A stretch of 64,000 nt of DNA from Acorus gramineus. Taxonomy: Eukaryota > Streptophyta > Magnoliopsida > Acorales > Acoraceae. The stretch spans positions 9,365,252-9,429,251 of the forward strand of contig CM060848.1 of the NCBI GenBank assembly GCA_030737835.1, in the 5' to 3' direction. The position numbers and the translations under genes are program-made. Below are positions 7,452 to 62,700 of the stretch, piece after piece. The notes beneath the pieces are model-generated. The model was not told the origin of the DNA and did no database searches. It was given only the letters and a program-made list of their open reading frames with translations. The stretch's first letter is position 1. Every line of letters starts with the position of its first letter.

Positions 7452-10029
7452 ATGGGCCGAGGACGCGCTCCATGCTGCGAGAAGATCGGATTGAAGAAGG
7501 GCTCGTGGACTCCGGCGGAGGACATGAGGCTTGTCGCCTATATTCGACGACACGGCCACGGCAACTGGCGTGCCCTTCCCAAACAAGCAGGTCCTCCTCT
7601 ATGTATATGTATAATTTCATTTACATGTTGTGCTTGATGGACTAGAAGCCATATATGTCTGTGATGAATAATACTTGATTACAGTGAAACTGAATTGTGT
7701 GTTTTTTTTATTATTATTATTTTTATAAGGGTTGTTGCGATGTGGGAAGAGCTGCCGTTTGAGATGGATTAACTACCTCCGGCCAGACATCAAGCGTGGC
7801 AACTTCACCATGGAGGAAGAGGAGACCATAATCAAGCTTCACCAGTTGCTTGGGAACAAGTAAGTGTTGTTATACACCTTTTTTTTTCACAACTATGTAT
7901 ATATGAAAAGTGAAATGTTGCACCAAGTCATCCTGAATAGCATGTTCCAATAGTATAAATTGTGTGAAAATTTAGAAGATGTGATAATTATGAACTTAAT
8001 CCATTTTTCTGAACATTTAATAAGTTAGTCTTTTATATAAATATTTATTTTTTATGAACATTTTTATAATATTTTGATATTTTTAAAATATCAATGTTTT
8101 TATTTTTGAAGAAAGTTGCTTCATAGGATTTGATTCATTTACCTCATTTATAGAGGTGGAGGTGTTTTCCGACTTAATCAAAGTTCGGTTCACTTTAAAA
8201 TACTAGTGTTACCCTGAGTGAAATATGTAATGATATAATAGATAGGGGATTAGAGGGGTGATTGGTATACTTATTTTTCAATTAATGAATTATATAAGGG
8301 TGTTTATTATTTACCATATCCGTGAGTGAAAATGATATAAATTTATATTCTAATGCCTGGTTGTATCAGATTATTTAAGTACAAAAAGATATTCTAATAA
8401 CAAAAACATTTCTATCTGGTACTGTTACACAAACACGTCTATAAAACGTCAGTGGCTAGTCCGACATATGTCTGATGCATGTAACTTTTAGTTCCTTCTA
8501 CTTAATTATATGATTCAGTAGAGTATACACCCCAGTAAACTGATTGAAATTCATATAATCCCTTGTAAACTGACCGAAATCTATAACCCTCTGACTTTTC
8601 TTAAAATTCAAATAACCCCTCAAAAAAAATTTACGTTCATAGATAATGAATATTTTGCGAATATTATGTTTGGTTAACCGTGACAGAAAATATAATATAC
8701 CAAAAAATCTACAATATGTTAAAAATGTGAAAAATCTTCTGTAGATGACGATTTTACCCCCCGGATAGGGTTTCATAATACATCTAGAGAGGGTAAAATC
8801 ATCATTTTTATAGGATTTTTCACATTTTTAACACATTGTAGTGGTTTTTTCGAGTATTGTATTTTCAATCATGGTTAACCAAATGAAATATTCGTAAAAT
8901 ATTTCTCATCTATTAATGAAAATTTTATTCAATTGATTATTTAAATTTACTAAGTGTTTTCAGGGGGTCATATGAATTTTAAGAAAAATCAGAAGGTTAT
9001 ATGGATTTCGGTCATATTTGAAAGGGTTGCATGGATTTTTCCCTTGGATAAATTAAATTTAAGGGACATAATCACTAACTTACTTAACATTATCCATTTC
9101 TAAAAGTTTTGTCTCTAAATAATATTAAAATATTATTTCAATTTTATATGCAGTATACCTCAATCAAAGGAACACTCATTAGTCATAATTAAGTGACTAC
9201 TAAGAAAGAAAAAAAAAAAGAGCAGGAGCAGGTGATTCTTTGAATATGTTTTTTTTTTTGGCACGTTAACTCATTATTGTACCTCCTATGCATCAGCAAA
9301 CCCTTAACTGTTCAGTAATCTCAACATCATGAAAGAAGTAAAATAGTAGTGGTCCAGATTCAGGAATACAATAAACATCTATTCCATCCTTCCATGCGCT
9401 ATTCCACAAACATTAGAATCCAAAGAGTACATCACTTTAAATGTTTTTTTTTTTTTCTTTCTAACTGTTCCCATTGAAGGTGGTCGAAAATTGCATCTCG
9501 CCTACCGGGGAGGACTGACAATGAAATCAAGAACATGTGGAACACACATCTCAAGAAGAGACTCTCCCTGGACTCGACCTCCTCCTCCTCCTCCTCCTCC
9601 ATCTCCTCCAATTCCAACTCCACCTCTTCAGACCCACGAAAAGCGGACTCTGATTCATCGAACGAGGACATCGACGTCGACCCGTTATCGTGTCCAATCA
9701 CGACGGATCATAAGGTGTTTTCATGCTCGTCTTCCTCATCTTCCGACATGACAGACCACCAACCGGTTCAGCCACTAAGCGAATCGACAAACGTCGTGGA
9801 TGAGACGGATATGGGAGTCCCTGTAGGCCTCGACTTGGACATCTGGGACGACGTGTTCGATCATGACAGTTGGTTGCCCATTTGTGACTGGGAAGGTCCG
9901 CCGCCACCACCTCCCGAGGGAGGAATAGAAGCAACAACAGTAGGGGGTGATCATGGTGAGAGTGAGAGGTGGATTGCGTACTTGGAGAGGGAGTTGGGGC
10001 TGTGGGCCTCATGGGGTGATCAAGAGTGA
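7452..10029 (+). CDS. R2R3-MYB transcription factor, three exons
   Basis: Nuclear DNA-binding regulator. Exons are 7,452-7,590, 7,730-7,859 and 9,480-10,029, all with GT/AG borders, and they sum to 273 codons (272 aa plus stop). Intron positions match the classic R2R3-MYB pattern. The MYB domain covers residues 1-118. R2 has the three spaced tryptophans W19, W39, W59; R3 has F72, W91 and W110, with the [11 protein letters not shown] helix and LKKRL end. The start [11 protein letters not shown] is standard. The C-terminal half is Ser-rich (about 122-135), then acidic, with [16 protein letters not shown] and a final [15 protein letters not shown] motif that may be an activation segment. The repeats resemble subgroups 2 and 3 (stress or phenylpropanoid/lignin regulators), but I cannot fix the subgroup. 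Intron 2 contains a fold-back MITE. The gene looks intact. Confidence 0.93.
8530..9045. mobile_element. Fold-back MITE inside MYB intron 2
   Basis: Two inverted arms of about 200-230 bp face each other. The left arm (about 8,530-8,745) contains 'gaccgaaatctataaccc' and 'cttttcttaaaattcaaat'. The right arm (about 8,805-9,045) carries the complements, for example 'gaattttaagaaaaatcag' and 'gatttcggtcat'. The centre has 'gacgattttacccccc' against 'gagggtaaaatcatc'. Nearly the whole element is paired, so a transcript would fold into a long hairpin. Target duplication was not resolved. It belongs to no MITE family I can name. Confidence 0.75.
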
Positions 10030-13373: not shown

Positions 13374-15032
13374 TTGAAGCGCGCAGTTGGATGTTCAATC
13401 TCATGGTCATTTTTATTTTGCTAAAACACACTGATAAACCATGTTTGAAATTCTTCAATCTTAGTCATTTTTTAACATCACATGCAAATAAATTTTTTTT
13501 CTCCCATTTTATAGAATTTATCAAAATTGAATACTTGAAAAATTAAAAAAAATTCTTCTGGACAAGTTACCAATGGCTCTACATTAAAAGTAATTAAAAA
13601 TTTGCATTTGTGATTAACAAGCTCTCTAGATGCATGTTTACACAAGCTTAAATGTTAAATAAATAAATAAATTATATAAATATGTTAGATTTTCATAAAA
13701 TCACTCTTCTCTAAATAAATAAAAGTATAGAACCGTGCAAAATATATTTTTCATTTACTACATACAAATTTTTTAATAGCATCTAAATTTTCAATTTTAA
13801 AATTACACTCAAAATATCTAATTTAATATTTTACAATTTTCAACCATGAAAAAATAATTTAAATCAAAATTCAATAATGAAAAAATCATCAAAATTTGCT
13901 TATGTAATTATTCTTCTTCTACTTATAGAATCAATGTAATTAGACAGCTAAGACTATAAAAAAATACAATCTTGAATTGGATGGACTTATGTAGTTTTGA
14001 GTAACACTAAAATTGTCATTGAATACTTAACAATGCAAATGCAGTTTTGGCTTAGATATTTCACCAAACACTTAATAAATTTTCAATATCAAAATACTTA
14101 CAAATCATACATACATTTTATCTAAGGAATAATAAGAAAAATGCATTTGAAGTTGCAGACTTAAAATGAAATATCAAGAAGGCATAGACTGATCACTAAA
14201 TAACATAGTTTACAGGGATTTAAAATTAAAAATCACATTTTACAAACTAACGGTATATGGACAGTCGTTTGGCGGAGGGACTAAAAACAAAATAAACAGT
14301 TGAAGTTAGGAACTTAAAAAGAAATATGAAGAAGGGACGGATTAATCACTAAATAATATACTCTAGAGAGATTCAAAAATAAAAATCCCAATAAAAAATA
14401 TTAAATACATAAAAAATTTATTTAACATCATAACATGATTTTAGTATATAAAATCTAAACTTCTTATTACCCCATCTGGAAACACTTAAAAGGGGTGATT
14501 CCGCTTTTAATTAAGCAGAAAGCTAAAAAATGTTACTACACATTCTAAAACGCTGGCTTAATTAAAAAGTTACTTTAAGCTTTTAGTGCAAAAAAAATGT
14601 TGATTTTTTAAACAGCAAAAAAAATCCACTTTCCAAAATCAAGTCTATTTAAGTTACTTTATTTAAAATCTTATTTTTCATACGAGTTTCCAAACGGACC
14701 AAATTAATTACAATTTCTATGAATAAAGAACCGATCGGTTTAATCAACCCATGCTGGTTTATAAAAATCGTCGGTTCAACCGGTGAGTTGATTAGGTTTT
14801 ATTAGTTTTTTTATATCATTGGTTTTGGTAAACCAAACCAGAATTCAAAGTGGGTGAAGGTTTAACCAGTTCAACCGATTAGGTCGGATAGCGTTTTAAA
14901 ACACTAGTTAAAATGTGTCATTCTTGTCTGTTGTCACTTTTATGGAATTCTTTTTTGAAGTAAATACTATCTAATTAAAAAAATAGAGCACATACTTGAA
15001 TAAAACTTATGCATAATTGAATACATGCTAAC

Positions 15033-44476: not shown

Positions 44477-44610
44477 AAGCACTTTTAGTCTCCGAAAATT
44501 GAATATTTGTAAAAATAGCCCCGTCACCTAAATATTTGTAAAAATTAGCCCCGCTGAAATTTTGTTCTAGAGACGATTATATATAATCCGTCTTCAGTGT
44601 TTTAATCCGT
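44477..44610 (+). repeat. Left terminal inverted repeat of the MULE
   Basis: Pairs with 57,330-57,460 in reverse complement, including the outermost 'agcacttttag', the '(c/t)aaatattt(g/a)(t/c)aaaaa' block and the first palindromic motif. Confidence 0.85.
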
Positions 44611-44772
44611 ATGTGCCCCATTCATACGGGAGACGGATTATAATTCGTCTCCAGTGTAAATCACCCCCTTATTGGGAATTTACATAGGAGACGGGTCATA
44701 TATAACCCGTCTCTTGGAGACGGATTATATACAATCCGTCCCCTGAAGACGGATTATATATAATCTGTTTTC
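44568..44772. repeat. Five palindromic GGAGACGG-type motifs, left MULE terminus
   Basis: Each unit is an inverted repeat of about 27 bp built as GGAGACGG, an AT core, CCGTCTCC. Units start near 44,569, 44,629, 44,687, 44,716 and 44,745. The last three lie head to tail. Core sequences vary (attatatataat, gtcatatataac, attatacaat) but pairing is mostly kept. Confidence 0.85.
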
Positions 44773-44997
44773 CATCTTAATTTTTTTTTTTTGTTGTATA
44801 GATTGTTGGTTATCTCACCTGTATGAAAATTTCTGCTTGAACATGCATAAATATAATAAAAATGCATTGATATTTGCATAAATCCATTACAATCACTTGA
44901 CTCCTGTTTCTAAACACCAATGAAAATACATAAATATAATAAACACAAATGAAAATGCATAAATATAATAAACATGTCTTACATCCCATAAATACAA

Positions 44998-47226: not shown

Positions 47227-47996
47227 CACCTGTAATTTGAACACAAGTTAATATATACTCAAACAATTGAACATTCATCATCATATCACAATCATATTTA
47301 ACATCAATTACCAGCATTTGTATTTCTACGTGGACATTTATTTTTTCTGTGGCCTTTCTCATGACATATTGAACATGTATATCTCAGACTTGGATCCCTG
47401 GAGTCCATATGCATACGTCGACGAGTTGATACAGGGCGCCCCGCTTGTCTCCTAACATTTGGTGGGATGAAGATAGGATCGTTTTCCGTAGGAATCGGCC
47501 AACGACTTTTATCATCAACGGAGTGAAATCGGGGTTCATAAGTGTGTCTATATGACTCTGAGGAAAGCCAATGTGACACATATCTCCCAGGACTAATACG
47601 AGCATACCCGCAGGCCGCTATGACATGTGCACATGGATAGTGAAACAACTTCAGAACATGACATTGACATTCTGCATTGTCAGAATATAAGAAAACAGTG
47701 TACATAACCGCATTCTTGTCTTGGACATTGAATTCTGATCTATCAAGCCTTCTTACTAACATCGCCCTTGCATCATGTGCAGTTCTCTCCAAACGTTGCT
47801 GCATAGATGGCACATGTTCACCTGACATGCTTTCAGCCGATTCACGCCTCGTATAAAAATACTCTGACACTCGTATGAATGTCTGTTGTAATATGGCAGT
47901 GACTGGCAATCCTCTTACACCTTTCAAGACACTGTTCATGCTTTCTGCTCTATTGGTGGTCATCGTGCCATGACGACGGCCATCCTCATAACAAAG

Positions 47997-50900
47997 TGTT
48001 ATATATGTGTCACTTTTAACCTACTGGTAACCGTTGGAGCGTTCTGGCAGTTTTTCATTTTTTTTCGATTTTTGATCGGAACCGCTAATTTTTGGACTGT
48101 TAGCTATCGTCCTGAGTTAGAGGACTCTGATTGGAAATCTAACTGCATATTTGGTGTCCTGGTGCCATTTTAGGCCTCTCACGAAAATTTCATCGAATTC
48201 CGGTAACGTTTCCAAAATTTCACAGTTTCGGGGCGTATCTGGGTTTTTAAGTGACCCGGCTATATAAGGTGGGTGAGAAAATATCTTGGGCACTATTCAT
48301 CATCCCTACCATTTGGATTTTCTCTCTCCCCTCTCTCCTTTTCTCACTTTTGAGCCCCTTAGACCCCTCAAACCCAAAAACCTAAAGCATAGGAAGTGTA
48401 GATCGGGTCCCGATCTACACCCCGATGCTTTCAAATCCCGATTCCGACGAGATTAGCCCCTCCTTCCCCCCTCTATTCTCCTCTGTTTTGGGCTGTTTCG
48501 AAGGCAGGAGTAGATCCGGGCGTTGGAAGCCCTTGGGGAGTGGTTTCGGTGCGCGGAGAGCAACCGGACTTCCCTTCCTCCCCTTGGTAAGCCTCCTTTC
48601 TCTCTTTTTCATGCTTAGATGTATGTTAGGTGGTTGATTTGGGGTTGGGAGGCGGTCGGCGGCGGTGGGTGGCCGTCGGAGGGCTGTGGAGGTGGTCGGA
48701 GGCCGGGGGTGGCGGGTGGTGGAGGTTGGGTGGCTCGGTCTAGGAGTTGGGCTGTCCGGGTAGGCTGGGCGGCTGTTCCGGGAGATTAGGCAGCGGGCGC
48801 AACAGGCTGGGGCACCAGGTGCCGGGCGCGCATGCGCGTGCGTGCAGGCGTGCGCGCGGCCTGCGCGCGGGTGGTGCTGCAGGCGTGGTGGGCGTGCTAG
48901 GCGAGCAGGGGTGCTGAGCGCTGGGCGCTGGGCACCGCAGGCGGGCGTGCGCGGGGCGTGCGCTCGGGGTAGGCAGGCAGGCTGGGCGCACAGGCGCGCT
49001 GGGTAGGTGGTGCTCGGGCGCCAGGCGGACAATGCTCGGGTGGGTAGGGGAACAGGGCTCGGGCCACTCGGCGACGCGCGCAGGCAGGCAGCGCGGGCAG
49101 CAGCGCGCGCAGGCTGGCAGGCGCGCTGGGCGCGTGCTGCCAGGCGCGCTGGGCTTGTGCTGCGCGGGCGTGCGCGTGGGCGCTGGGTGAGGGTCCCGGG
49201 TGCTGGGCGCTGAGCACCAGGCGCTGGGCCGCGGGTACCGGCTGCTGGGGGTGATGGCCGAGGGCAGTGCGTCCAGGGGGGGTCGTGCAGGGTGCGCGCG
49301 GGGTGCGCGCAGGGCGCGACAAGGCGGCTGTGGTGCGCACGGGGCGCGGCGAGGCGGCGGTGGTGCGCGCGGGGTGTGCGCGGGGCGAGACGTTGCGCGC
49401 GGGGCGTGCGGGGTGCTCGTGGGCCGGCGCGAGGCGTGCGGGGTGTGCGCGGGCGGCTGCGCTGGGGCGCAGGGGGCGCGCGGTGCACCGGGGAGGTTCG
49501 GCGGAGCGTCCAGGCGGCGGGCGGGGGCCCGGCGGTGCGCGGGGTGCGTTGGCTGAGGCGCGGCGGTGCACCGGGCGGTCGGGTGGCTGTGCGGGTGGTT
49601 GCCGGGGTGCTCGGGCCAGCGTGCGTGCGGGTCGTATGCACGTTTGCCCGAGTGTTGGGTGTTTGATTTGGGATTTTGGGTATTTATTTGTGTATGTTGT
49701 GTGTTTTGGGGTATCTGTGGATTTTAACTCACCGTATAAATGTCTATCTTGCAGATCTTGACGGGCGGTCGCGCGACGACCCGATCTTCGGTGTGTGGGA
49801 CAATCCAACCCAGTAGAGAGGGGTCATACGCATTTGGGCATATACCGACCTCTCCTGGGGCACCATGGATGTATATTAACCAGCAGTAATATGTAATCCA
49901 TGCTTGCATGATTTAAATGTAGAATGCATGCTACCCTAGTCTTTGTATGTTAGGGACTTGCACCCTTAGGATAGGTGTAAGAGCCATGCACCATGCCCCC
50001 TGTTTTCATGATAGGAAACCTCGGCCTATGCATGCGTCCTACTAGTTTGTTTATTAAATTAAATGCTAGTGTATGTTAATTCGCATGCCTTAGATAATAT
50101 TATAGGGAGGAGCCTTGCGAGGTCAACATTGAGACCCGTGTTAGGGTACTCCGTGTTCCTTTTTTGGCTGTCGGGATGTCCTGTATCGGGACCTCATGCT
50201 GCCCACCCAAGGTTTCTAGTCCCATTAATATTATAAGTAATGTTATATAACTGGTATGATTATTAGCATATTTAGTGAATATTATAGGGGAGGGGCCTTG
50301 CGAGGACAGCGGTGAGACCCGGGTTAGGGTACTCCGTGTTCCTTGTTTGGTTGTCGGGGTATCCTATATCGGGAACTCACGCCGCCCTCCCGAGTTCTTT
50401 CCCCAATGATATTACAACCTTGCTTTTATTGTACGTGTTCCCCGCATCTTGGTTATGCGCCCTGGAGGAACTCTGAAGAGTTCATGACATTAGAGTTGTA
50501 GAGATGTGTTGTCGGCGGATCCGAGTGGATCATATGCGTATGGATGGGCTGTTCCGTTTCCCTTCGTTGGATCCGTGTAGAGACTGCCCCAGCGTGATAA
50601 GGTCGTCCCTTCCGAGGGCTCCCATCAGTAGGCGCCTCCCGATATTTGTGACGGACTGCGCTGAAGTTATGGGTGAAGGCCAGCGGCCTACGGAGTGGAG
50701 GAGAGACTATCGGTGGACCAAGGGTGACCAACAGCCTAGTCAGTCCCAATATCCTATGTCACCCGTGGTAGGGTGAGGGTGAGGGTGTAGTGGGTTGGCG
50801 ATGAGCGACCTACTGGATTTGTGATTGGATGATTATCAGTCCCAATAGCCTATGTCACCCATTGATGGGTGAGGGTGAGGGTGTGGTGGTTCGGCGAGGT

Positions 50901-51440
50901 ACGAACCACTGGATTATGTTGTTATGTCACTTAGAGGCTGGATAAATAATGGAATTGTGGTAAATATTGTCTGTGATGCATGGGTTGTGCTGTTCACTGA
51001 GCGTGTGGCTCACCCCTCGCATATGTTTTTCCCCAGTGGTCACTGAGCCTGAGCTGGAGCCGGAGCAGCAGTTGGAGCTTTCCGAGGGATTCCTTCAGTA
51101 GCGGAGCAGCGCTACGTTCCGCGAGTGCCAGAGGTTATCAGCATCCCGTCTTGGCTGTATGTATTTTATTTCCGTGCTTGGCACGTGTCTGTATATATTC
51201 AGTTGTATTTGTATATATTGGCTCTCACAGGACAGATGATTGTGTATCGAGTCTGTAGAATGTTTATTTACAGATTCAGTCTTTTGCTTCCGCATTGGGT
51301 TTATATATCATGTCAGCCCCTTTGTTATCTGTGTGTCATTCTGGTTGTTTGTGTATGATATATTATTGACCTCCTGTGTAGATTCTGATATTTTATATAC
51401 ACTTGCCGCGTCCCGGGGACGGCCGCCCTGGGGCGTGACA
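47997..51440 (+). mobile_element. Giant solo LTR, subfamily A, copy 1
   Basis: 3,444 bp, TGTTATATATGTGTCAC at the start and GGGGCGTGACA at the end, flanked by CAAAG on both sides (47,992-47,996 and 51,441-51,445). TG/CA ends with a perfect 5-bp duplication and no internal gag, pol, PBS or PPT mark a solo LTR. Parts: TATA-like 'ctatataagg' (48,260-48,269), CT-rich leader, a short open frame at 48,425-48,637, a donor-like CTTG|GTAAGCC at 48,587, a 1-kb extremely GC-rich block (48,650-49,640), an acceptor-like TTGCAG|ATCTTGACGG at 49,755, then tandem repeats of about 180 bp (50,100-50,400) and 100 bp (50,735-50,915). The parent family is probably Ty3-gypsy, by inference only. Confidence 0.85.
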
Positions 51441-51876
51441 CAAAGGGCCCATGTTTGTGGAGGGACTTGATCAAGCCATGTGCGAGCTTGTGAGGAGGCA
51501 CTAAGAATCTTTTGCATTTCATCAGCAAATTGATTTGGACATTTCAAGGTGGCAGCCCTCCACACCTGGTCACTCAACTCCTTTGATTTAACATTTTTTT
51601 TGAAGTTGTCTATCATGTGTCTCATACAAAAACGATGGTGCCATGTCACATTGCTTGCTTCCTCAATATCCTTCATGCCTGCTATGATGCCCAAGTGCCG
51701 ATTTAATATGACACACAAATTGTTTATACAACCAACAGAAAAGAACAAGTTCCAAAGGAAGAAGGTCCAACTGCTTCTGTTCTCAGATTCAACTATAGCA
51801 AAGGCTATCGGAAGCAAACCATTTTCTGCATCGCAAGCAGTGGCTATCAGGAGATTTCCTTTATATTTTCCATACA

Positions 51877-54800
51877 TGTCACGCCCCAGGGCGGCCGTCC
51901 CCGGGACGCGGCAAGTGTATATATAATATCAGAATCTACACAGGAGGTCAATAATATATCATACACAAACAACCAGAATGACACACAGACAACAAAGAGG
52001 CTGACATGATATATACACCAAATGCGGAAGCAAAAGACTGAATCTGTAAATAAACATACTACAGACTCGATACTCAATCATCTGTCCTGTGAGAGCCAAT
52101 ATACACAAATACAACTAAATATATATACAAATGCGTGCACAAGCATGGAAATAAAATACATACAGTCAAGAAGGGATGCTGATAGCCTCTGTTACTCGCG
52201 GAACGTAGCGCTGCTCCGCTACTGAAGGAATCCCTCGGAAGGCTCCAATTGCTGCTCCGGCTCCAGCTCGGGCTCAGTGGCAACTGGGGAAAAACATATG
52301 CGAGGGTGAGCCACACGCTCAGTAAACAGCACAACCCATGCATCACAGACAATATTGACCACTATCCAGATCTTAATAATCCACAATCTCTTATTAACAA
52401 CCACAAAATGGTAACAAATACACAAACTAGTGGGTCGCTCAATCGCCAACCCACTACACCCTCACCCTCACCCTTCAATGGGTGACATAGATTTTGGGAC
52501 TAATAATCATCCAATCACAACTCCAGTGGGTCGCTCATCGCCAACCCACTACACCCTCACCCTTACCCTTCCACGGGTGACATAGGATTTTGGGATTGAC
52601 TAGGCTGTTGGTCACCTTTGGTCCACCGATAGTCTCTCCTCCACTCCGCAGGCCGCTTGGCTTTCACCCACAACTTCAGCACAGTCCGTCACAAATATCG
52701 GGAGGTGCCTACTGATGGGAACCCTTGGAAGGGACGGCCTTTCTAACGCTGGGGCAGCTTCTACCGGATCCAACGAAGGGGACAGAACAGCCTATCCATA
52801 CGCATATGATCCACTCGGATCCGCCGACAACGCATCTCTACAACTCTAATGTCCTGAATTCCTCAGAATTCCTCCAAGGCGCATAACCAATATGCGGGGA
52901 ACATACACAATAATTAGCAAGGGTGGAATATCATTGGGGGAAAGAAACTTGGGAGGGCAGCGTGAGTTCCCGATATAGGAAACCCCGACAACCAAACAAG
53001 GAACACGGAGTACCCTAGCCCGGGTCTCACCGCTGTCCTCGCAAGGCCCCTCCCCTATAATATTCACTAAATATGCTAATAATCATATAATTTGGTATAA
53101 CATTTCTTATAATATTATTGGGACAAGAAACCTTGGGAGGGCAGCGTGAGTTCCCGATACAGGACACCCCGACAACCAAACAAGGAACACGGAGTACCCT
53201 AACCCGGGTCTCAGTGTTGACCTCGCAAGGCTCCTCCCTATAATATTATCTAAGGCATGCAATTTATCATACACTAGCATTTAATTTAATAAATAAACTA
53301 GTAGGACGCATGCATAGGCCAAGGCTTCCTAGCATGCGAACAGGGGGACATGATGCATGGCTCTTACACATATCCTAAGGGTGCAAGTCCCTAACATGCA
53401 AAGTCTAGGGTAGCATGCATTCTACATTTAAATCATGCTCGCATGGAATACACATTACAATAGGTTAATATAAATCCATGGTGCCCCAGGAGAGGTCGGT
53501 ATACGCCCAAATGCGTATAACGCCTCTCTACTGGGTTGGATTGTCCCACTCACCGGAATCCGGGTCGTCGCGCGACCGTCCGTCAAGATCTGTAAGACAG
53601 GCATTTATACGGTGAGTAAAATACATAAATACATCAAAATACTCTAAAATACCCAACACTCGGACAAACGTACATACGGCCCGTACGCACGCGTATCCGA
53701 GCATCCCGACTCACTCCCGAACCCACCGGGCAGCCGCACGCACGGCCACCCGCCTCGGGCGCACAGCCGAGTCCCAGCCCGCGCGCCAAGGCGCCCTGCC
53801 GAACTCAGCCCGCACGCCCGGACAGCCTGCCGAGCCACCCGGGTGCACCGCGCGCCCACTGCGCCCCGCCGCAGCAGCCCGCGCGCACCCTGCACGCCCC
53901 CGCGCGTACCACGCGAGCACACCGCACGCCCCGCGCCTCGCCCCGCGTGCACCACCAGCTCTGCCCCGCGCCCAGCATCCGTGACCAGCTCCCAGCGCTC
54001 AGCGCCCAGCACCCGGGACCCTCACCCAGCGCCCACGCGCACGCCCGCGCAACACGTGCCCAGCGCGCCTGGCAGCACGCGCCCAGCGCGCCTGCCAGCC
54101 TGCCCGCGCTGCTGCCCACGCTACCTGCCTGCGCGCATCGCCGAGTGGCCGGAGCACCGCTCGCCTGCACGCCTGGGTACTGCCCGCCTGATGCCTGAGC
54201 ACCCCCTGCCAGCTGCCCGAGCATGGCCTGCCCAGCCGGCCTGCCCTGCTCGCACAGCCCGCAGCCAGCCTACCCGCATGCCTCCCTCTGCACCCCCCGA
54301 GCGCACGCCCGCGCGCGCGCCCAGCAAACTGGTGCACCTGATCCCAGCCTACCCGAGCTAACCCTGCCAGCCTACCCAGCGTGCCCAGCACGCCCAGCGC
54401 CATCCCGAGCGCACGCCCGCGCGCACGTCCGCGCGCACGCGCGCGCACGCCCTGCCGCTGCACGCCTGCTGCGCCTGCCTGAGCGCTGCCTGTGCTGCCT
54501 GCTGCCCGGGACTGCCAGCCTCCCTGCCCGAGCTCCTCTACCACCCACCACCGGCCACCCCAAGGCCTCCGACCACCACCCACAGCCCTCCGACGGCCAC
54601 CCACCGCCGCCGACCGCCTCCCAACCTCATTTCCATCCTCCTAACATACATCTATACAAGAAAAGAGAGGAAAAGAGGCTTACCAAGGGGAGGAAGGGAA
54701 GTCCGGTTGCTCTCCGCGCACCGAAACCTTTCCCCAAAGGCCTCCAACGCCCGGATCTACTCCCACCTCCGAAAAGGCCCAAATCAGGGAAGAAGAGAGG

Positions 54801-55276
54801 GGGGATGGAGGGGCAAATCTCGCCGGAATCCGGATTTGAAAGCACCGGGGTGTAGATCGGGACCCGATCTACACTTCCTATGCTTTAGGTTTTTGGGTTT
54901 GAGGACTCTAGGGGGCTCAAATCAAAGAAAAGGAGAGAGGGGAGAGAGAGATTTCATTTGGTAGGGATGATGAATAGTGCCAAGCAAGGTTTTAGATCTC
55001 ACTCATATAGTGAGTCACTTAAAATACCCGGATACGCCCCGAAACTGTGAAATTTTGGAAACGTTACCGGAATTCGATGAAATTTTCGTGAGAGGCCTAA
55101 AATGGCACCAGGACACCAAATATGTAGTTAGATTTCAAATCGGAGTCCTCTAACTCAGGAAGATAGATAACAGTCCAAACATTAGCGGTTCCGATCGAAA
55201 ACCGAAAAAAAAAAACGAAAAACTGCCAGAACGCTCCAACGGTTACCAGCAGGTTAAAAGTGACACATATATAACA
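51877..55276 (-). mobile_element. Giant solo LTR, subfamily A, copy 2 (inverted)
   Basis: 3,400 bp, the reverse orientation of copy 1 with the same ends, flanked by ATACA on both sides (51,872-51,876 and 55,277-55,281). It has the same order of parts on the minus strand, including the donor-like site near 54,685, the GC-rich block (53,640-54,620), the acceptor-like site near 53,588 and the paired 180-bp repeats (52,915-53,240). The different target duplication shows an insertion separate from copy 1. Old enough for many differences between copies; no coding for Gag or Pol. Confidence 0.85.
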
Positions 55277-57246
55277 ATACATATGTGTTCCATCGATGCA
55301 AACCAATGGACGACAATGTTTGAAAGCCTCTAAGGCTGGTCCGAATGCCCAAAAAACACGTTCAAACTGTCGGATCGGTCTGCCCATGTTATTCTCTTGT
55401 ATGACAGAGCCTTCGAAGAACACCTTTTTTCTTGGATTAGACCTCCTCAAGGCATCAACATATAGAGGCAACTCAGCATATGATTCCTCCCAATTTTCAA
55501 ATATCCTCTCCATAGCTTTCCATTTGGCACGGTGTACCTTTGAATATGAAATTATGTAGTGATGATCAGCATGTATCCTGTCCATTATCTCAGTAGGACT
55601 GATTCTCAAATTATGACGAATCGTTGGCATAATTAGCTGTGAGATATAATCAGAACTAAATTGTCTGTGATTTGAACTGAGTAGAGGATCTAAGCATGTA
55701 TGAGGAACTCTCAGAGTTGAAATCTTGAACATTTTTGAACAACCGACCCTCCTCGCATATAATCTCCAATTACATCCATCATTTATGCACTGAACGACGT
55801 ATTTTTCTGCATTTGATTTCACCACATGACACTGTACACATTTCTTTATGCTCCAGGTTCGGACAGCATTAATGAGTGACTTCTTATTTGTGAAAAGCTG
55901 ACCAACCCCTCAAGTTCATTACACGAAGAAGATCCGATTTCATAAATGCATGGATGTACATTTTCTGCCACCGCTTGCTCCATGAGGTCATGTGTAGGAT
56001 ACATTTGAGGAACACTATATTCATGGATGGCAGTTCTCCCCACATCATGGTCCTCTTCAGTATCGGGTCCTTTAACCCAGTGATCTTCACGATCCTCTTC
56101 TTCTTCTTCAGTATCTTCTCCCACTTCCTCTTCTTCTTCTCCTCCTTCTTGATCTTCTTCTTCTTCATTGTTTACTTCAATTCCTTCACGAATATCGTCC
56201 CAACCCATGTCATGAAATGGAGACCTATAAATGCAAACACATTATATTTATACATATTAATACACCCACCAAAAATATCCTATAAATACACAATACTTAC
56301 AAATGTGGTATATTGACACTCCCATAGGCATTGGTCGGTGTTGCATCAATCATATTCTCTTGGGTCCACGGAACAAATGACGACGATGAAGGTTGATATG
56401 GTTCACGAACAATGGAAGGATATGAATCTTCTGCATCATAATTCATCGCGCCACGACCTCTTTGTATGATCTCTTCCTTCTCGAACCATATTTGAATGAC
56501 ATGCACGTGCTTTGGGTACAACATTATCATCACTTTCACACCCATATCATCTTCGAGAGGGACACCCAAACTCTTTCCGTCGTGAGTGGGATGCACAACA
56601 CTCATGAATAATTTGTAAAGACTTGGATCGGTCCCCGTCAAATGGTACATCATTTAGAGCAAATCGACATAAGAGATCCTCTTATGTATGATGGTGGTTT
56701 TCCTCGTACCACTTTCATAAAATGAAGTATCTTCACGTTGAACAATCCTCCTGTTAAAAGAGTACATTAACGGGACATCGGATTTCTTTACCATCTAAAC
56801 CATAAATTATTCAACTTAGTAAATATATTTCTCAATTGATAATAAAAAAATTCATCCAACATATACAAGTATATTAAAAAATTCATCCAACACATTTTTT
56901 TAAGTTTTAAAAGTCTATATATACAAATAAGAAATTCTCAATAAACCAAACACAAAATATATACCTCATTTCATTTTACAAAGCATCACACATTCAACAT
57001 GTCAATAATAAAAAAAAAACACAAAAAATTTATACATAAAATCACAACAATTGGATAAATAAATAAATTTAAGAAATTGTTTAGGGTTTTGATGTTTACC
57101 TTTGGATTAAAAATGGTCTTTGAAAATTGATTTAAATGTATATGAACTGCTTGGGGGTGAAAATAGGCCTTTGGAGGGAGAAAAATGGGTGAAAATGGGG
57201 TGAATAGGGTTTCTCTGCGGAGGCGGGGTATATATAGGACGTGCTC

Positions 57247-57364
57247 TGGAGACGGTATATATATATACCGTCTCCTGGAGACGGATTATATATAATCCGT
57301 CTTCAATGTAAATCCCGACATATCGGTTAAAACACTGGAGACGGATTATATATAATCCGTCTCC
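57247..57364. repeat. Three palindromic GGAGACGG-type motifs, right MULE terminus
   Basis: Units near 57,248, 57,277 and 57,336. The second and third match the left-end units almost exactly. The first has the core 'tatatatatata'. Confidence 0.85.
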
Positions 57365-57462
57365 AATACAAAATGTCAGCAGGGCTAGTTTTTGTAAATA
57401 TTTGGGTGACAGGGCTATTTTTGTAAATAGTCAATTTCTGGGGGCTAAAAGTGCTAATTACC
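57330..57462 (-). repeat. Right terminal inverted repeat of the MULE
   Basis: Reverse complement of 44,477-44,610 with scattered differences. Its inner edge also carries a palindromic motif. Confidence 0.85.
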
Positions 57463-59729: not shown

Positions 59730-62700
59730 TGTCACGCCCCAGGGTGGCCGTCCCCGAGACGTGGCAATAGATAAAGTATCAGCTATCAAGTACAAGAGGT
59801 CAACAATGACTCTAATAAATAACACACAAAGCTGGCAAAACAATGATAACTGATAGTTCAACTAAAATGCGGAAGCATAAGAATATCAATAAGTCTGTAA
59901 ACCAAAACATTATTATAGACTCGAATACACAATCACTGTCCTGTGAGAGCCAAGTCTAATCCAAATAAAATACATCATGTGCAACACGCACGATTAACAA
60001 ATACATGACTCTAGGACTGCTGACAGCCTCGCACTCGCCAACCGCCGGACGGAACGCTCCACGCACATAAGACCGCGCCACAGGGAAGCTCCAGCTCCAC
60101 GCCCAACACCACCCCTGTAAAAGAAACAAGACACGAGGGGTGAGCTACAAGCTCAGTGAGTGGCTGGAAACCAAACACTATTACAACAATTCAATACTAA
60201 GGCAAATTCCTTTCGAGGAACAACATGGGTAGAAACCCAAAGGATAACAAGGTCACGCGACGGCGCGACCAACCTCACCCTCGCCCTCACTCCCGGAGGG
60301 AGGCTCTTGGGACACTCGGGGAGGAACAACTGTTAACCATAACACATGGTGTTTACTGGATAACAAGATACAACTGGTCTAACAACTATGAGGTAGAGAT
60401 ACACTACGATACCTCAAGCGTTAAACATAACATAGTACAACAAGTCCTTCCGCTATGAGGTAGAGATACACTACGATACCTCAAGCGTTAGGCGTAACAT
60501 ACCCAGAGTATACTCGACGGGTATAAGAGTCACGTGACGACGTGACTTCAACTCATCCTCACCCTAGCCCCCAGAGGGGTGACCCTAGGGACTTTTGGGA
60601 TAAATCCGTTTGCTCTACACCCTTCGTCATCCGGTAACCCTCTCCCGGGTAGCCTCTACCTGGTATACTCCCATGATCAATACATCTTGCCGCATGCATC
60701 GATAGTACCTATAGGTGGGGGCCCTCTGTCAGGACAGCTACAACGCCGGGCAGCATCGACACGGATCCGACGAAGAGGAGAACGATTCCACGCTCGCAAT
60801 ATCATTCGTTAGCCCTCTCCCGGGTAGCCTCTACCTGGTATACTCCCATGATCAGTACATCTTACCGCATAGATCGATAGTACCTACAGGTGCGCCCTCT
60901 ATCAAGACAGGTTGTCAAGACAGCTACAACCCGGGCCGCTTCAACACGGACGATATTGGGAGGAAATACTCCATGTTCGCAAAGCGAACCCAATGGAAAA
61001 GTCAACTACTCTCGATAATCACATACCGATGATATCGAATACTCTTGAACTCCCACACAGATGCGTCGCTCGGACGCGAGGAGTTACCTTTGCTCTCGCG
61101 CAGAAATAAGCCAAAGGCATATAACCCAACAGGCGGTTCATACACGTGCCTGGCACAGGTAGGCCTAACTTAATGCCATGGCCACCGGTTTAACAAAACC
61201 GATACAATAATGAATTCTCCTGAATTCCATATGAGTGTATCACATGGATGCAAGGGCCATTACATCACTTGTACTCTAACTAATAAGGTACAACTCGACT
61301 AAGGGTCATACCCATGCCTAGCACGAGTAGACAAAATTAGTCTAACATGCGCATAATATAATAGGAGAATTCTACTGTAGTTATGTACATAAACCACATG
61401 CACGATAACATAATAATTAATCATGGGGGTACTCCCTAACATGGATAAAAGCATAAACAACATATCATGCATACATGGTATGGCCTAATTAAACATGCAT
61501 ACAAGGCCATTAGTCATACAAGCATACAAGTATACCCTAACATGCGTTGGATATCACCAACTTAAAAGGGAAGGGTCAAGCGCGATCTCGCGCATTAACA
61601 GGTGCATGCCAATATTCCCAAACAACCCTGAGTCAAGTAGGAACCACATCTACTTACTCAGTTCGCACAAAAAGAGAGGGCGAGAGAGAGCTCATTATCT
61701 CTAGAAGTTGGTCATAGATTTGCCCCATTAGCATGAGCGCAACAACTACACCACACCCTCAAGTCTTATTGCAAGGGAATATTAGGCATGTGCCTGTTTA
61801 TTAACCCAGGCTTAATCATGCTGGATATTACTAATAATAGGGTAGTATTACTAGAAGGGATTACCTAAGTCATGCCATATTCTATACACCCATATAAACA
61901 CACAAGATACATGCAACCATGATCATTCACACATAAATACTATACATAGGCCAGTATAAGGTAGAATAAGAGGGTTCTACGCAATATACGAGTTATAATA
62001 ACCTAGCATGCAAATAGCTAGCATATTATGGGTCAGACATGACCACACTACTTATCTAAATAAGTAGTATAGTTAGGGTGCCCAACGGATGCGCGACGCA
62101 TGACTACGTGCATCCAACGCTTCCCGAAGGGTTGGATCGAACCACTCACCGATACCCGGGTCGTCGCGCATCCAACCGACGAGATCTGCAAGGCAAGGGC
62201 ATCAAAAGGGGTGAGTACCTCAAACAAAGACTACCTAACTCCTGATAGTTTCCACAACATGCATAACAACTCCTTGACACACAATCAAGCAAAACTGGTA
62301 AATCTGCTGCAACCAGCCCTACAATTTGATCTCCACAGCACCAAATACACATCCAAAAATTATGAAATAAATCATACACGTTCACTGACATGTTGGGATC
62401 ATAATCCATGAAGACATCATAATCTGATTTAATCTCTAAATGCCCGAAATAAAATATTGCCAGACACTGGTCAATTCCTACACGAATCTGGACAGTCCAT
62501 GCAAAACAGGTCATAACTTACAACACAGATATCATATTGACACCAAATTTCATATATAACATCTAGACACATAGACGATCATATTACATGCAGACATAAG
62601 CCTCAATATATGCCTCTAGGTACTAGTTCCGAGGGTATCTTAAGGAGACACAAATCTGCCTTACTACCACACAAAACCACCACCATCCATGCATAAACAC

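Follow-up and report, generated by a model that had tools for sequence, protein, structure and literature searches.

Two solo LTRs of one retrotransposon family in opposite orientation within a MULE transposase gene of Acorus gramineus

Nested LTR elements in coding MULEs have been documented in maize and rice (PMC3903597). A second point of reference is Mu killer of maize, whose inverted arms consist of the transposase gene together with a terminal inverted repeat (TIR) (PMC3440606). One account of its mechanism follows the hairpin model (PMC2725412), and a second one, built on short antisense transcripts, leads away from flanking read-through (PMC3440606). Finally, the TR-GAG elements are non-autonomous LTR retrotransposons that possess gag alone or gag plus protease (PMC6022998, PMC8704663). 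Here we compare these systems with a locus from Acorus gramineus in which MULE and LTR sequences are combined. It is contained in a window of 64,000 nucleotides, by which we mean the whole stretch of DNA that was analysed; this window lies on contig C2 of the genome that we searched (398.6 Mb in 137 contigs).

Two solo LTRs and their host MULE

Table 1. Positions of the two LTRs, their target-site duplications (TSDs) and the parts of the host MULE, counted from the first letter of the window.
Feature	Position	Strand	Details
Host MULE left TIR region	44478..44614	.	
MULE transposase frame, 3' part	47304..47996	-	SWIM zinc finger PF04434; E codon of the NRAES motif at 47,943-47,945
LTR1 left TSD, CAAAG	47992..47996	.	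second copy 51,441-51,445; single CAAAG in 7/7 empty-site relatives
LTR1, solo LTR, gag-bearing Ty3-like retrotransposon family	47997..51440	+	reads rightward
LTR1 TATA box, TATATAA	48261..48267	+	265 bp from LTR1 start
Spacer, middle piece of MULE transposase domain, 436 bp	51441..51876	-	PF10551, E 3.4e-9; holds one copy of each TSD
Codon AAT (N) versus GAT (D) in relatives, SDRH motif	51701..51703	-	three changed bases 51,703-51,705
LTR2 left TSD, ATACA	51872..51876	.	second copy 55,277-55,281; single ATACA in 7/7 empty-site relatives
LTR2, solo LTR, same family as LTR1	51877..55276	-	reads leftward
LTR2 TATA position, TATATGA	55003..55009	-	
MULE transposase frame, 5' part	55282..55909	-	PF03108; D codon of the IDGTHMY motif at 55,292-55,294
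Host MULE right TIR region	57318..57455	.	

Two solo LTRs, which belong to one family and are independent of each other, are situated within a MULE transposase gene (Table 1). The initial annotation had described an inverted pair of 3,444 and 3,400 bp around the spacer, and coordinates, lengths and arrangement were all confirmed, as were the separate and perfect 5-bp TSDs, CAAAG for LTR1 and ATACA for LTR2. The termini of the two LTRs are alike, with TGTTATATATG at the start and GGGGCGTGACA at the end. Each LTR has both termini, is enclosed by its matching TSD and contains no internal region, which is what defines a solo LTR. The primer-binding site (PBS, GTTGGTATCAGAGC) is absent after both tails; it is present after 8 of 30 fetched tails, a set that includes the LTR1 tail of the window. 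In an alignment over their full length (2,827 matches, 447 mismatches and 296 columns with gaps) LTR1 and LTR2 are 86% identical; the bins at the ends reach 95–100%, and several in the GC-rich middle fall to 67–76%.

The transposase domains of the host MULE follow each other in the expected order PF03108, PF10551 and PF04434, split over three minus-strand pieces, and its TIR arms of 98 nt (44,478-44,575 and 57,358-57,455) are 83% complementary, with a further 40 nt at 90%. The TSD of a MULE is expected to measure about 9 bp (8–11). Near the ends, a search at lengths of 9–11 with at most one mismatch gave no host TSD, only chance 9-bp matches in poly-T. Short palindromic units such as GGAGACGGATTATATATAATCCGTCTCC are arrayed within the MULE ends (window positions 44575-44810 and 57219-57357). 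Farther along the window, at 59730-59970, 60635-60887 and 62129-62195, there are pieces similar to the retrotransposon's LTR tail (73%), to its internal region (76–80%) and to a stretch of LTR2 (79%), which are probably what is left of an older related element on the minus strand.

For the spacer comparison eight loci were fetched, namely the window itself and seven relatives (L002-L008). In all seven relatives the MULE DNA is continuous across both points of insertion, and CAAAG and ATACA each occur once there. Because both sites are empty in 7/7 relatives, LTR1 and LTR2 are separate insertions into a pre-existing MULE, and the empty sites together with the separate TSDs support the earlier view that the arrangement arose by nested LTR insertion. 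One could also imagine a single rearranged element, in which the LTRs are the ends of one inserted unit or a pair created by inverted duplication, and the shared family, the opposite orientation and the short spacer would fit such a history. It is contradicted by the two different TSDs and by the 14% divergence, and it is refuted by the empty sites, where in every relative the spacer sequence joins the MULE DNA on either side without a break, so that we give it practically no chance.

We favor two nested insertions, by which a MULE with long TIRs (about 44.48–57.46 kb) would have been hit twice, in opposite orientations, by one very abundant gag-bearing Ty3-like family with 3.4-kb LTRs. Each insertion would then have been reduced to a solo LTR via recombination between its own two LTRs, which would leave one LTR inside its own TSD. 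In this way the transposase gene would have been split into three pieces and its three catalytic positions separated, with a middle piece that lacks the aspartate. With its transposase gene cut by two retrotransposon insertions, the MULE at this locus is dead. That nested insertion and LTR-LTR recombination killed this one copy, as an ordinary process without a silencing role, is in our judgement very probable; we infer both the recombination that formed the solo LTRs and the absence of a silencing role.

Source family, reading direction and background of convergent pairs

The source family has very long, GC-rich LTRs of 3.4 kb and an internal region of 2.8 kb. In its gag-bearing members L069, L071 and L072 the internal region spans 2,781-2,789 bp, begins with the PBS, ends with a purine tract and encodes gag (PF03732; E 1e-16, 9.9e-18 and 7.1e-18, in this order). 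The two LTRs are 97.9% identical in L069, 96.6% in L071 and 93.0% in L072, the last value not being a clean insertion age, since L072:1-9951 (on C93) lies in a tandem LTR-internal-LTR array, whose outer LTRs adjoin a purine tract and PBS and not host DNA. L069 and L071 are flanked by the 5-bp TSDs TATAT and GCTTC. Five internal frames (three of L069 and one each of L071 and L072) gave no pol match by Pfam. A stretch of 93 amino acids near the internal 3' end also gave no Pfam match; by eye we take it to resemble the end of a reverse transcriptase.

In all three of these members gag is located downstream of the GGGGCGTGACA end, and therefore LTR1 reads rightward and LTR2 leftward. The two LTRs are thus convergent, as had been claimed, but it is the position of gag that fixes this and not the TATA-like sites from which it had been deduced, the one in LTR2 being altered to TATATGA. 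TATATAA is found in 29 of the 30 fetched LTR heads closest to LTR1, that of LTR1 included, and the remaining head reads TATAAAT. A pattern for the LTR2 context, which covered variation between A and G at one position only, matched 166 places, and 99 of the 100 listed read TATATAA, so that LTR2 is the sole TATATGA among them. Judged from this comparison, the leftward promoter of LTR2 is probably weakened, an altered TATA not being equivalent to proof of silence.

The genome contains the family in high copy number. The 11-base LTR tail motif occurs at 14,862 places (reversed control 20), a 20-base tail at 8,502 places and the LTR head motif at 9,753 places (control 274). Tails followed by the PBS number 2,921 genome-wide. 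With two tails counted per PBS-bearing element, about 9,020 tails remain, roughly 3 per element, which is a rough solo-LTR estimate that includes truncated and tandem copies.

Convergent tail pairs with a spacer of 401-461 bp are found at 25 places, the window included, versus 8.5 expected if copies were uniformly distributed (3.0-fold), and divergent head pairs with the same spacing at 10 places versus 3.6 (2.7-fold). Hence we see no excess of convergent over divergent pairs (binomial p = 1.0, at the low power given by 25 and 10 places, the divergent test resting on another, AT-rich motif with its control of 274 versus 9,753). Because divergent pairs behave like convergent ones, we ascribe the threefold enrichment to clustering. 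The 25 convergent places are motif pairs and not proven solo LTRs, with a PBS-like stretch by one tail in at least five; since the PBS stands beside some tails and some pairs are alike, independent solo-solo pairs must be fewer than 25.

Similar spacer ends, over the part compared, are seen in the pairs C60:2343503-2343963 and 2360366-2360826, which have opposite orientation on C60, and further look-alikes are C54:1596720 and C68:1418899 as well as C56:2428225 and C59:1895794. This recurrence suggests that a nested unit was itself duplicated. Convergent pairs are present at other spacings too, with 252 bp (C65), 741 bp (C1), 972 bp (L045) and 1,230 bp (L052); the PBS follows the second tail of the C1 pair and the L052 tail. 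The C65 pair (C65:744,337-751,603) has nearly the same span as the window pair but was rejected as a duplicate of it, because the PBS at the start of its spacer belongs to an LTR element, and it is an independent pair. The arrangement in the window is not unusual, and the convergent layout is as expected when a clustered high-copy family inserts at random.

The spacer and its predicted fold-back RNA

The LTRs had been said to flank the catalytic core of the transposase. The spacer does belong to the transposase domain, but the core is not intact between the LTRs. We take the catalytic residues to be the D of the IDGTHMY motif (D1), the D of the spacer motif SDRH and the E of the NRAES motif (Table 1); one of these three positions is inside the spacer, with D1 to the right of LTR2 and the E to the left of LTR1. 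Likewise, the part on which the LTRs converge is MULE transposase sequence, as proposed, but it does not hold the DRH motif ascribed to it. The window copy reads LNRH, while SDRH stands in frame in six of the seven relatives and the seventh is frameshifted before the motif. A 34-base spacer pattern that allowed variation at the motif matched 122 places genome-wide, and at the 100 places listed the three variable bases read CAG 98 times, CGG once and TTA once, in the window alone. Both CAG and CGG keep the D codon, which is therefore preserved at 99 of the 100 listed places, that is, at all besides the window. The three adjacent private changes that create TTA at 51,703-51,705 and turn SD into LN are probably the result of one multi-base event.

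When changes of the window copy were scored as private only where all other rows of the alignment, those of the seven relatives, agree, we counted 4/431 in the spacer, 23/1,497 in the right flank and 7/1,096 in the left flank, over part of which L002 is non-homologous (222 'private' sites in its own row, left uninterpreted). The poor homology of L002 lowers the left-flank count and therefore any bias would favor the spacer. The spacer has no excess of private substitutions (4/431 versus 30/2,593 in the flanks, p = 1.0) and no excess of C>T as a methylation footprint (C>T/G>A in 3/4 versus 22/30, p = 1.0). Three of its four private changes are adjacent, and the same run contains two of the three C>T/G>A changes.

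For a 934-nt RNA across the spacer we obtained a predicted fold of -537.5 kcal/mol (z = -30 versus 20 shuffles), in which the LTR tails pair as a long stem, while the loop, with weaker folds of its own, consists of the MULE piece. An RNA of the fold-back or convergent kind would stand mainly for the LTR family and would have the MULE sequence in its loop. The initial annotation had suggested a trigger resembling Mu killer, in which convergent read-through from the LTRs yields double-stranded RNA of the transposase piece and silences the MULE family. The LTRs are indeed convergent, and targets are available, the spacer sharing 97–98% identity with the other 39 among 40 scored copies (213 candidates) and its pattern recurring at the 122 places. 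Yet the layout is not unusual, with convergent pairs no more frequent than divergent ones, the TATA that is intact in 99 of the 100 listed same-context copies is altered in LTR2, the spacer would be loop and not stem, and neither substitutions nor C>T changes are in excess there. The data do not support such a trigger, which we regard as extremely unlikely.

A further possibility is that a transcript from LTR1 through LTR2 forms a hairpin of about 3 kb and that the small RNAs made from it act on the LTR family, the MULE being a bystander. The 86% identity of the arms, the 614 of 3,424 LTR1 21-mers that are perfectly matched in LTR2, the 249-nt arms next to the spacer, which are 96% complementary and fold with the z of -30 given above, and the TATATAA kept in LTR1 would all be compatible with this. 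It requires, however, unproven transcription through 6.8 kb. Moreover, a high-copy LTR family is expected to yield small RNAs via the usual polymerase IV route, and with thousands of copies as expected source a single hairpin adds little, so that we consider this very unlikely indeed. By even extrapolation from the 25 motif pairs in the one 61-bp class, the genome may contain about 400 convergent pairs of LTRs whose spacers do not exceed 1 kb. That they serve as dispersed hairpin loci for the retrotransposon family, while an intervening MULE loop is silenced by spreading, seems very unlikely to us. Our literature search, mainly of titles and abstract openings, found no published case in which convergent solo LTRs give rise to double-stranded RNA, which is not proof of absence. 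Based on the sequence, a silencing role of the window locus is unlikely.

Comparison with known systems

The locus provides a clean example of an abundant retrotransposon that inactivates a DNA transposon. It also carries a warning that a striking inverted pair of LTRs should be weighed against a count of such pairs over the whole genome. Should the hairpin reading prove true, random nesting would be shown to be a supplier of silencing triggers.

The source family resembles the TR-GAG elements in that it has two LTRs, a PBS, a purine tract, gag (PF03732) and an internal region of 2.8 kb that is too short for a full pol. TR-GAG elements are also characterized by the lack of reverse transcriptase, integrase and RNase H domains, and the source family would differ from them by the Pfam-negative 93-aa stretch, which to our eyes looks like reverse transcriptase. 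With Mu killer, the window locus shares that it is MULE-derived and includes inverted sequence. In contrast to Mu killer, the arms are formed here by LTRs and the loop by the transposase piece; the transposase is not present as an inverted duplication. Silencing activity has been shown for Mu killer and would be hypothetical for the present locus. Another parallel is found in the MULEs of maize and rice. There, in contrast to the window, where both insertions are solo LTRs in opposite orientation, the main text of the study does not contain the word 'solo' (PMC3903597). What the locus has in common with the MULEs treated in that text is that LTR elements, frequently two or more to a single MULE, have entered the transposase gene and destroyed it.
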